A stretch of DNA of 64,000 nucleotides from Marixanthomonas ophiurae (lineage in GTDB: Bacteria; Bacteroidota; Bacteroidia; Flavobacteriales; Flavobacteriaceae): the NCBI RefSeq assembly GCF_003413745.1, contig NZ_QVID01000002.1:248001-312000 (forward strand), given 5' to 3'. Below, piece by piece: positions 28,043-57,182 of the stretch. The notes below the pieces were generated by a model. The model saw nothing but the letters and a program-made list of their open reading frames with translations. It was not told the DNA's origin and made no database searches. The translations under genes were made by a program, and so were the position numbers. Positions within the stretch are counted from its first letter, which is position 1, and every line of letters starts with the position of its first letter.

Positions 28043-28606
28043 TTAAATAGTTGTAAAACCACTCTCATGTGTTTTTAAATATTCAGTTATTTTTTTTACC
28101 GCAATGTGATAACTACTTTTTAACCCGCCTACTGAAGTTTCTAAAATTTCTGAAAGCTCATCGTAGGTGTGTTCATCAAAATATTTCATATTGAACACCA
28201 ATTGCTGTTTGGGCGGTAACGTGGCTATTGCCTTTTGTAGTTGTATTTGAATGGTCTTTCCTTCAAAATAAACATCACTTGTTAAGTTTTCAATAGCACG
28301 CTCTTTTACTTCTTCTGAAGTAATTTGCTTCCGTTTAGCCCTTTTATTTATAAATGTAATGGACTCGTTGGTAGCAATACGATACATCCATGTGTATATT
28401 TTGCTATCACCCTTAAATGAATGAATATTTTTATAAATTTTGATGAATGTGTTTTGCAATACATCATCGGTATCATCATGATTCAATACTATTTTACGAA
28501 TATGCCAATACAGCTGTTCTTTATATTGAGACACGAGTTCCCTAAAAGCAGCTTCTTTTTGCTTATCGTTTTGTAAAGCAGTGACTAAATCGTTTTCTGT
28601 TACCAA
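28043..28606 (-). CDS. ECF RNA polymerase sigma factor
   Basis: 187 residues. Sigma region 2 (LYWHIRKIVLNHDDTDDVLQ, TFIKIYKNIHSFKGDSKIYT, WMYRIATNESITFIN) and region 4 (ATLPPKQQLVFNMKYFDEHT, YDELSEILETSVGGLKSSYH). The start is a TTG at 28606 (MVTENDL...); upstream of it in frame only ATA, ACT, ATT and TTT precede tandem TAA stops, and no ATG lies before region 2. It heads the operon with the anti-sigma-like and Spy-like genes. A small inverted repeat (ACACTT-TT-AAGTGT, 28631-28644) lies just upstream and could be regulatory. Confidence 0.92.
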   Translation of the reverse strand: MVTENDLVTALQNDKQKEAAFRELVSQYKEQLYWHIRKIVLNHDDTDDVLQNTFIKIYKNIHSFKGDSKIYTWMYRIATNESITFINKRAKRKQITSEEVKERAIENLTSDVYFEGKTIQIQLQKAIATLPPKQQLVFNMKYFDEHTYDELSEILETSVGGLKSSYHIAVKKITEYLKTHESGFTTI

Positions 28607-28644: not shown

Positions 28645-28776
28645 AAAAGGTTTAATTGTAAGGCTACCTTTTTCAAATTACTATTATTAATTATAAAAAT
28701 CGATTAAAAACAAATATTAACGATAAAAAGCGTAAATAGTTTTTTTGTAGGAAAATAATTACTAATTTTGAGGAAC

Positions 28777-28867
28777 ACTACTTATGTGTGTGTTTTTGTT
28801 ATAAGCCTCAAGTATAGCAAAAATGAGTTAAAAACGGGTCTAAGCGGGGGCTGGCCCGTTTTTTTAT
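28777..28867 (+). ncRNA. Candidate small RNA 1 (own promoter and terminator)
   Basis: TAATTTTG (28763-28770) is an exact -7 box, with TTTTTTG ending at 28747 upstream, which predicts a start near 28777. The transcript would contain the 5' segment TACTTATGT (28779-28787) and a hairpin formed by 28793-28803 with 28813-28823 (11 pairs, one G-U) whose loop carries GCCTCAA. It would end in a terminator, 28832-28838 pairing with 28853-28859, followed by a T run. No credible reading frame covers it. It shares its design with the candidate at 29012-29095. Confidence 0.45.
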
Positions 28868-29011
28868 TTTTTTGAAACGTCGAAGTTCGTACTATTTTTA
28901 TTGTAGGAAAATAAATAATTATCAAAACGAAATAATCGATAAAGTGTAAATAATCAAGATTAAATACATATTTTCTTGGTGGAATTAAAAAAAGAATATA
29001 TATTTGAATCA

Positions 29012-29095
29012 AATAACTTACTTATGTAATCACCATGTGCCCCAAATATGGTGATTAAAACTAAAAAAGAGCGGTTCCCCAACCGCTCTTTTTTG
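29012..29095 (+). ncRNA. Candidate small RNA 2 (paralogue of small RNA 1)
   Basis: TATATTTG (28999-29006) with TTG at 28976-28978, spacing 20 nt, predicts a start near 29012. The transcript would contain TACTTATGT (29019-29027), a perfect 10-bp hairpin (29027-29036 with 29048-29057) whose loop carries GCCCCAA, and a strong terminator (29063-29076 with 29081-29094, stem ending AAGAGCGGTT). The short region between the two candidates repeats TGTAGGAAAATAA (28746-28758 and 28902-28914). The rest of the 28607-29119 gap shows no gene. Confidence 0.5.
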
Positions 29096-29119
29096 TGTTT
29101 CTATATGTGTTTAGCTTAA

Positions 29120-30946
29120 TTAGGCTAAAGATTGCATTTCAACTAAACTGTGGTAGACACCTTTTTTTGCTAATAGTTCAGTATGCTTTCCTTGTTCTAC
29201 AATCTTTCCTTTGGAGAGAACAACAATTTTATCGGCATTTTGAATGGTTGATAACCGATGCGCTATAACAACAGACGTACGGTTTTTCATCATTTTCTCT
29301 AATGCGTCCTGTACCAGACGTTCACTCTCGGTATCTAAAGCCGAAGTAGCTTCATCCAGAATCATTATAGGTGGGTTTTTAAGTACGGCTCTTGCGATGC
29401 TCAACCGTTGTTTTTGGCCACCACTTAATTTATTACCGCTATCACCAATATTGGTGTCAATTCCTTTAGGTAAATCTTTAACAAACTCCCAGGCGTTGGC
29501 TATTTTTAAGGCGTCTTCAATTTCTTCGGTAGTAGCGTGTTCCTTGGCGACCAATAAGTTTTCCTTAATAGTATCATTAAACAAGATAGAGTCTTGAGTT
29601 ACTAGTCCTAATAAGCTGCGCAACGATTTCTGTGAGATGGTTTTAATGTCATACCCATCTACGGTTATAGATCCTTCGTTTACATCGTAAAAACGCGTAA
29701 GTAAATTAGCGATGGTGCTTTTTCCACTTCCACTTTGTCCTACTAGCGCTACAGTATGGCCCTTAGGAACGGTTAACGAAAAATCATGGAGTACATAGTC
29801 ATCTTCATATTTAAATGAAATGTTATCTATTTCAATTTTATTGTTAAAACCTTCTTTCTCCATAGCATTGGGAATATCTTGAATGGTAGATTCCGTTTCT
29901 AAAATTTCCAGAACACGTTCGGCAGCGGCATTTCCCTTTTTAACCCCATAACTTGCTTTGCTAATTGCCTTTGCAGGAGTAAGAATGTTATATGCAAGAC
30001 CCATAAAAACAATAAATTGTTCGGGTTCTAGGGTTCCTTCTACTAACACCATAGAACCTCCGTACCACAATAAAATGGCAATGACCACAATCCCCAAAAA
30101 TTCGCTGGTAGGCGAAGCAAGATTCTGTCTATTGATTAAAGAGTTTGAAAACTTATAAAACCGTGAGGTAGAATCGTTAAACTTTCGGTTAAAAATACGT
30201 TCGGCGTTAAAACCTTTGATAATTTTAAGTCCGCCAAGGGTTTCTTCCAAAATACTCAAAAACATTCCTTGTTCCTTTTGCACGTTGTCCGATTTTCGTT
30301 TCAGGCTTTTACCAATACGTGAAATAATCAACCCGGAAACCGGTATAAAGATAAAAACAAACAACGTTAACTGTGGACTTATAACCAACATCGCGATAAT
30401 GGTAAAAAGGATCATTAAGGGTTCGCGTACAATTAACTCTAAAATAGATAGAAATGAATGCTGTATTTCCAATACATCACTCGTTATACGGGCAATGGTG
30501 TCTCCTTTTCGTTTTTCTGAATAAAAAGAAACTGGTAGGTCTATTGTTTTTTTGTATAATGCATTCCGAAGGTCTTTTAGCACACCGTTACGCAAATAAG
30601 TAATAAAATACATCGCCAAATAACCGAATAGGTTTTTTAATAAAAAAGTACCGATTACTAGCGAAATCATAATCATGAGAGCGTTTAACTCTCCTGTAGC
30701 TTCAATTTTTTGGTTGATGTAATAATTAGAGTAACTTTCTAAATAGCCTCCAATTTCAGTAATCCCTGTATATTCCGGTATTTTAGAAACTTTTTCTGAA
30801 TTTCCGAACAATACTTTCAGCATCGGCATAAGCGAAACAAATGCCAAGGTGCCAAACAACGCATAAAAAACGTTTGAAATTATATTCATCCATGCATACC
30901 CTTTATAAGGTCGTGCAAAACGGAGTATTTTTTTAAAGTATTTCAC
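29120..30946 (-). CDS. ABC exporter, fused membrane and ATPase domains (MsbA-like)
   Basis: 608 residues. Six transmembrane helices in the N-terminal half (ABC_membrane), then an ATPase with Walker A GQSGSGKST, signature LSGGQKQRLSIARA and Walker B IMILDEATSALD, followed by the H-loop (VIAHRLST). It acts as a homodimer exporting a lipid-like or hydrophobic substrate; MsbA-type lipid A flipping is the usual assignment but is not proven by sequence. GTG start at 30946, two bases after the TAG of the phosphohexomutase gene, so translation is likely coupled. Confidence 0.9.
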   Translation of the reverse strand: MKYFKKILRFARPYKGYAWMNIISNVFYALFGTLAFVSLMPMLKVLFGNSEKVSKIPEYTGITEIGGYLESYSNYYINQKIEATGELNALMIMISLVIGTFLLKNLFGYLAMYFITYLRNGVLKDLRNALYKKTIDLPVSFYSEKRKGDTIARITSDVLEIQHSFLSILELIVREPLMILFTIIAMLVISPQLTLFVFIFIPVSGLIISRIGKSLKRKSDNVQKEQGMFLSILEETLGGLKIIKGFNAERIFNRKFNDSTSRFYKFSNSLINRQNLASPTSEFLGIVVIAILLWYGGSMVLVEGTLEPEQFIVFMGLAYNILTPAKAISKASYGVKKGNAAAERVLEILETESTIQDIPNAMEKEGFNNKIEIDNISFKYEDDYVLHDFSLTVPKGHTVALVGQSGSGKSTIANLLTRFYDVNEGSITVDGYDIKTISQKSLRSLLGLVTQDSILFNDTIKENLLVAKEHATTEEIEDALKIANAWEFVKDLPKGIDTNIGDSGNKLSGGQKQRLSIARAVLKNPPIMILDEATSALDTESERLVQDALEKMMKNRTSVVIAHRLSTIQNADKIVVLSKGKIVEQGKHTELLAKKGVYHSLVEMQSLA

Positions 30947-56939: not shown

Positions 56940-56947
56940 TATTTTTG
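56940..56947 (+). promoter_or_regulatory. -7 box of riboswitch-btuB transcript
   Basis: TATTTTTG matches TAnnTTTG just before the riboswitch. A TTTG at 56912-56915 may be the -33 element. Confidence 0.5.
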
Positions 56948-56950
56948 CAG

Positions 56951-57137
56951 CGAATTTTGGTGAGTATCTCTACCAACGAGTAAAGATTCTCTTAAAAAGG
57001 GAATTCGGTTATAATCCGAAGCTGTTCCCGCAACTGTACGCCGTCTCAATTTTTTGAGATTATGAAAACTTCACCACTGTGTTTTTATTAGCACGGGAAG
57101 GTTCATAGAAAAGGTAAGCCAGGAGACCTGCCAAGAT
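56951..57137 (+). promoter_or_regulatory. Cobalamin riboswitch
   Basis: The conserved core is present in order: a GGGAA / GCTGTTCCCGCAACTGT segment (57030 region), CCACTGTG (57073-57080), CGGGAAGG (57094-57101) and the B12 box AGCCAGGAGACCTGCC (57117-57132). It lies 50 nt upstream of btuB. Between box and ATG a hairpin (AACCTT 57156-57161 with AAGGTT 57169-57174, then T run) could be the expression platform. Binding of adenosyl- or aquocobalamin should repress btuB and the following gene. Confidence 0.95.
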
Positions 57138-57182
57138 TTGTTAACGAAACAAAACAACCTTCGGGAAAAAGGTTTTTGGTGT

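Follow-up and report, generated by a model that had tools for sequence, protein, structure and literature searches.

Tandem structured small RNAs in the Flavobacteriaceae and a possible antagonism between the two copies

Between a gene labeled as an ECF-type sigma factor (a label read from the sequence, without a family search) and a convergent msbA-like gene of Marixanthomonas ophiurae lie two sRNA-like units, U1 and U2, in tandem on the plus strand. The question is whether these units are functional RNAs, and if so, what each of them does. The first-pass annotation of the window, which is the whole stretch of 64,000 nucleotides analyzed here, had assigned to each unit a TAnnTTTG box, a known promoter element of Bacteroidota, together with a shared 5' segment, a hairpin and a terminator. 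The sequence, the open reading frames and the folding confirmed every one of these features at that place (Table 1), and three more were added, namely a C-rich loop in the terminator of U2, a G-rich loop in the terminator of U1, and twin repeats upstream of both promoters. A small protein product was rejected by eye, since the ATG in ACTTATGT is followed immediately by TAA in the window U2, in L030 and in the second unit of L034, and soon by a stop in the window U1, and no reading frame is conserved.

Table 1. Positions of the features of the U1/U2 locus in the window.
Feature	Position	Strand	Basis
ECF-type sigma factor gene, left flank	28043..28606	-	ORF, 187 aa, TTG start
U1 operator-like direct repeats CGATTAAAAA + CGATAAAAAG, 20-nt period	28701..28730	+	perfect motif match
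TGTAGGAAAATAA element, U1 promoter region	28746..28758	+	orthologous U1 units preceded by TTTTGTAGGAAAAT or a near match
U1 -7 box TAATTTTG	28763..28770	+	sequence; fits Bacteroidota TAnnTTTG box
U1 (type-1) sRNA, ~90 nt	28777..28866	+	covariance model R2; predicted ends
U1 conserved 5' segment ACTTATGT	28780..28787	+	CTTATGT invariant in 27/27 type-1 units (required by the search pattern)
U1 hairpin 1, loop GCCTCAA at 28805-28811	28792..28824	+	fold and pair counts
U1 terminator hairpin, G-rich loop UAAGCGGGGGCU	28830..28866 (about)	+	stem pairs 63-80, 64-79 and 65-78 covary, loop constant
U1 G-rich loop core GCGGGGGC, complementary to U2 GCCCC loops	28844..28851	+	duplex energy
Second TGTAGGAAAATAA copy, between the units	28902..28914	+	sequence
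U2 operator-like direct repeats CGATAAAGTG + AGATTAAATA, 20-nt period	28937..28966	+	perfect motif match
U2 promoter: TTG at 28976-28978, 20 nt, then TATATTTG at 28999-29006	28976..29006	+	sequence
U2 (type-2) sRNA, ~83 nt	29013..29095	+	covariance model R1, syntenic orthologues in many genera; predicted ends
U2 conserved 5' segment ACTTATGT	29020..29027	+	alignments A2 and A4
U2 hairpin 1, loop GCCCCAA at 29039-29045	29027..29057 (about)	+	double changes in 11/12 stem pairs
U2 terminator, loop UUCCCCAA at 29075-29082	29064..29095 (about)	+	fold and pair counts
MsbA-like ABC transporter gene, right flank, convergent	29120..30946	-	ORF, 608 aa

Relatives were first searched for in 201 genomes of Flavobacteriaceae with the pattern ACTTATGTN{0,30}GCCYCAA, which returned many chance matches within genes and a set with matching hairpin and terminator. 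The covariance model R1, built from the alignment of twelve type-2 units, reached E-values below 1e-6, taken as strong matches, in some 20 genera. These strong matches, and many of those with E from 1e-6 to 1e-3, lie between homologues of the sigma and msbA genes, and since the search made no use of synteny, this position confirms the weaker matches. Weak matches located elsewhere (L066, L073, L149, L150 and L167 among them) were excluded from the U2 count. The model search proposed in the first-pass annotation thus led to the same locus wherever the strong matches were checked. At almost all of the syntenic loci that were tested, a homologue of the sigma gene adjoins the RNA, and an msbA homologue adjoins it at the syntenic loci as well. 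Outside the Flavobacteriaceae, R1 gave nothing strong across 148 genomes of the order. In the g128 genomes listed in that search (perhaps Flavobacterium), it had no strong match either. The sigma gene is likewise not within 1.5 kb of msbA outside the family or in the G128 locus.

The conservation of structure was evaluated in 27 units of each type. For U2, the folding z-score in the window was -10.3 and the R1 score had an E-value of 9.9e-16, the window U2 being a member of R1's own alignment. Among the type-2 units, 89.5% of the cells pair, and compensatory (double) changes occur in 17 of the 22 stem pairs; the number of double-change cells was 100 compared to 33 in shuffles, and structures slid along the alignment reached at most 66% pairing. 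The hairpin 1 loop GCCCCAA is invariant in all 27, and the inner G-U pair next to this loop is kept in 25. The 5' segment was part of the pattern that retrieved the first relatives, while later ones were retrieved with the model. For U1, the z-score was -2.5, and R2, the type-1 model, scored the window U1 at E 4.7e-17, again with the window unit in its own alignment. In the type-1 alignment A3, 95.6% of the cells are paired and six pairs show double changes. The stem pairs beside the G-rich loop vary (GC to AU, CG to UA) and GCGGGGGC stays unchanged. This set was collected by a pattern demanding CTTATGT, GCCYCAA and GCGGGGGC, so the invariance of these letters in A3 is partly a product of selection. 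Unbiased evidence for the G-loop comes from the U1 copies adjoining U2 units that R1 alone retrieved: nearly all of them carry it, three are without the C-loop, and the U1 of L057 is without the G-loop. Covarying stems around conserved single strands, as expected at the outset, were thus borne out in U2 and in the terminator stem of U1.

Since the units are conserved in about 20 genera, with the checked ones at the same locus, and their stems carry double changes, chance can be excluded, and U1 and U2 almost certainly belong to a genuine functional family of structured RNAs. The family is absent from Rfam and is spread over many genera of Flavobacteriaceae. The first-pass annotation could not link the units to a named family, and none fits: no Rfam 15 family scored above gathering at either unit, and Flavo-1 (RF01705) was absent even among the matches with E up to 10. 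Among all other Rfam 15 families, only the cobalamin riboswitch passed within the window, and the remaining listed matches at E up to 10 were below gathering. Low-score matches to MicX, cow-rumen-4, STnc320 and FopS on either strand were rejected, being below gathering and mostly confined to the terminator hairpin. There was no tRNA or tmRNA in the window, the Rfam scan of six related loci returned tRNA only, and literature searches found no published description of this RNA. The cobalamin riboswitch (RF00174, 97.6 bits) lies at 56941-57149 of the plus strand.

Type 1 was found in 19 of the 201 family genomes, which corresponds to 18 of 200 genera, and further genera carry type 2 alone. Because of this wider reach of type 2, it is probably the older form, with type 1 as its tandem duplicate; the origin by duplication proposed earlier is supported by the comparison of relatives. 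Where both are present, their order and start-to-start distance (mostly 230-250 nt) are maintained across genera. In a scan of named genomes, the pair was present in Altibacter, Aureisphaera (U2 masked by N), Aureitalea, Halomarinibacterium, Marinirhabdus, Marixanthomonas, Pukyongia and other Flavobacteriaceae; matches in other taxa, such as Rhizobium and Anaerolineae, were attributed to chance. A lone unlinked unit was observed in G077 (L305, near 3400), between glycerol-kinase-like and ABC-permease-like genes, in a genome with no detectable U2. Twin repeats and GTAAGAA are present in this unit, as is GCGGGGGC in its terminator loop, but a C-loop is missing.

The promoter regions of the two units are alike. 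Twin CGATNAA repeats (roughly CGATNAARTGCA), 20 nt apart, precede both promoters. The exact motif has only three perfect sites genome-wide, two of which are those at U1 and U2. The repeats stand at all those intact orthologous U1 and U2 promoters that were inspected by eye, and at U2 they are conserved even in genomes without U1. The -33/-7 arrangement of the U2 promoter also recurs in orthologues. Repeats two helical turns apart resemble, as we assume, the sites of LytTR-type response regulators. Since both promoters bear the same repeats, U1 and U2 are probably induced together. Both the twin operators and the location between the ECF sigma factor gene and msbA suggest a regulon; the genome offered one further perfect and a few one-mismatch intergenic sites, with no clear theme. 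The third perfect copy (L119, C1:717796-717825 of the same genome) is followed by TGTAGGAAATA and lies downstream of CoA-transferase-like genes, and one of the one-mismatch copies (L127) is flanked by a tsaE-like and a porX-like gene. The TGTAGGAAAATAA repeat, which the first-pass annotation had connected with the duplication, does occur twice, but its reading needs a change. Many orthologous loci have a GTAGGAA-like element placed similarly to the copy between the units, TTTTGTAGGAAAAT adjoins the U1 -7 box across orthologues, and the copy between the units is more variable. Judged from these alignments, TGTAGGAAAATAA is conserved mainly as part of the U1 promoter region.

The two units had been described as being of the same design. 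This holds for the 5' segment and the hairpin, and U1 units preserve much of hairpin 1 besides its loop, but the pair is asymmetric in the terminators, where the loop of U1 is G-rich. In U2, the C-loop of hairpin 1 recurs in the terminator as TTCCCCAA, and most U2 units combine GCCCCAA in hairpin 1 with a CCCCAA-type terminator loop; the latter motif is absent from the U2 of L055, L057, L059 and L061. The loop GCGGGGGC of U1 could pair with the GCCCC of either U2 loop over 5-6 bp, mostly at -9.7 to -13.8 kcal/mol, energies computed in silico for the loop segments and excluding the cost of a kissing geometry. The window's own pair and similar ones fall at about -9.7 to -13 kcal/mol, with about -12 kcal/mol as a typical value. 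Only 8 of 5000 random 12-mers paired equally well. The base before the CCCC of U2 is G in 38 of the 39 distinct loci with a G-loop (the exception, C, still pairs) and T in 10 of the 18 scorable loci without one, although these loci are related rather than independent and those without a G-loop are mostly in other clades. This association is consistent with co-evolution of GCCCC and GGGGC and may merely reflect descent.

The C-rich loops in one RNA match the G-rich loop in the other, which suggests that one controls the other. We propose that U1 and U2 are paralogous sRNAs that would be transcribed independently. U2, the presumed older type, has C-rich loops in hairpin 1 and terminator and an unpaired 5' segment ACUUAUGU, and it would most likely be a trans-acting RNA that base-pairs with mRNAs at their G-rich stretches. 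After the tandem duplication, U1 would have gained the G-rich terminator loop GCGGGGGC, through which it could pair with the C-loops of U2 in the cell and titrate U2 as a sponge. With a shared regulator, U1 would then set a threshold or limit on U2. A close parallel is known in Staphylococcus aureus, where RsaE (RoxS) has a duplicated UCCCC seed and RsaI has two G-rich tracts, and RsaI binds RsaE via GGGG/UCCCC motifs and acts as a sponge (PMC9217828). We give an even chance to the interpretation in which U2 acts as an sRNA by base-pairing and the derived paralogue U1 titrates it, much as RsaI does with RsaE. Held slightly more tentatively is the evolutionary account, by which a base-pairing sRNA may have spawned its own antagonist by tandem duplication and the self-limiting pair was then retained across many genera; part of that account is that the antagonist copy would have kept the promoter design and scaffold while its terminator loop turned into a G-rich decoy for the C-loops of its parent. 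If true, an sRNA and its antagonist can arise via a single duplication. Few sRNAs of Bacteroidota have been characterized outside Bacteroides, and this family, apparently undescribed, extends over much of the Flavobacteriaceae, with Altibacter, Marixanthomonas, Marinirhabdus, Aureitalea and Aureisphaera among the carriers.

Some findings speak against a sponge. G077 has a G-loop unit without a detectable U2, the U1 of L057 lost the G-loop, and pairing with the G-loop accounts neither for the AA in GCCCCAA nor for the almost invariant G-U pair by the loop. The main rival makes use of the last point. An RNA-binding protein would recognize the GCCCCAA loops, and U2, having two of them, would titrate or scaffold this protein like CsrB-type RNAs. 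The same loop motif does stand on two different stems of U2, and the G-U pair and the invariant AA in hairpin 1 exceed the needs of loop pairing. The search for mRNA targets counts against mRNA pairing by U2 and agrees with this rival as well, with no target motif prominent among the sites of TTTGGGGC, the complement of the U2 loop. There were 88 such sites compared to 70 for the reversed control, not a clear enrichment, and the expectation that mRNA start regions would be complementary to the loop failed, since only 7 of 87 sites were near a start codon, none convincing as a target. CATAAGTAAG as antisense partner in relatives gave only scattered single sites besides U2 itself. Protein binding, however, leaves the conserved G-rich loop of U1 and the 5' segment unexplained, and the terminator loop motif is lost in L055, L057, L059 and L061; we consider it unlikely, though worth keeping in view.

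A somewhat less probable alternative is that U1 and U2 are ordinary base-pairing sRNAs, each acting in parallel on mRNAs of its own. In that case, C-rich mRNAs would be the partners of the U1 G-loop, and that this loop is complementary to U2 would be incidental. The lone unit of G077 and the retention of much of hairpin 1 and its loop in U1 would fit such a division. Against it, complementary loops are adjacent across about 18 genera, and GCCCC is associated with U1. The G-loop could also fold onto U1's own C-loop in an intramolecular kissing that stabilizes U1, as most U1 copies have a GCCCC or GCCUC pairable with GGGGC. But the G-loop persists in L044, L051 and L058, which lost their own C-loop, and likewise in the unlinked copy L167. 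Because the first three and the G077 unit have a G-loop without a C-loop, pairing within U1 is not what maintains the G-loop, and this explanation is very improbable. Hardly credible at all is a reading without any sRNA function, by which the hairpins only terminate transcription or are left over from attenuators between the two neighboring genes: with an A-tract before and a T-tract after its stem, the nearly symmetric U2 terminator could indeed end the minus-strand msbA transcripts, but termination requires neither the conserved promoter boxes and operators nor the conserved 5' segment and hairpin 1.

The proposed titration of U2 by U1 was compared with known systems. U2 shares with RsaE the duplicated C-rich seed, and U1 has a conserved G-rich tract GCGGGGGC as RsaI does; the binding of the two RNAs to each other is predicted here from in silico duplex energies. 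The motifs of U1 and U2 sit in hairpin loops, their hosts are Flavobacteriaceae, and no sequence relation to RsaE/RsaI is claimed. The source on RsaE and RsaI does not present them as tandem paralogues (PMC9217828), while U1 and U2 share 5' segment and hairpin design. FopS and GibS of Bacteroides are paralogous sRNAs as well (RF04319; PMC11697453), and each has its own promoter and intrinsic terminator, as U1 and U2 appear to have. FopS consists of a single-stranded 5' stretch followed directly by the terminator hairpin (PMC11697453), whereas U1 and U2 carry a conserved extra hairpin; U1 scored 18.4 bits (E 2.6) against FopS (RF04319), compared to a gathering score of 56 bits. Rfp18 of Flavobacterium psychrophilum is a structured sRNA required for normal levels of protease mRNA, with target pairing predicted in its third stem-loop (PMC9723704). 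By this description, its at least three stem-loops set it apart from the two hairpins each of U1 and U2. C-rich loops are also found in the CcsR or cuckoo RNAs of alphaproteobacteria. These are tandem homologous sRNAs, four of them in Rhodobacter sphaeroides (PMC10253847). CcsR RNAs share their transcript with a protein gene and undergo processing by RNase E, whereas U1 and U2 each have their own predicted promoter and terminator.

Two further loci were of interest. In G162 (L306, C2:384500-388000), three near-identical sRNA-like units lie in tandem, at locus positions near 1205, 1425 and 1600. Each of them combines a box of the TTTG or TTTT type with CATAAGTAAGT and a terminator whose loop is GUGGGGAC. 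Their 5' segment and loop resemble the reverse complement of ACTTACTTATG and the CCCC loops of U2, possibly by chance. In G439 (L347 and L314, same genus), the hairpin loop of U2 has changed to UCCCCC, and pairing with GGGGG in the U1 loop, itself unaltered, is preserved.
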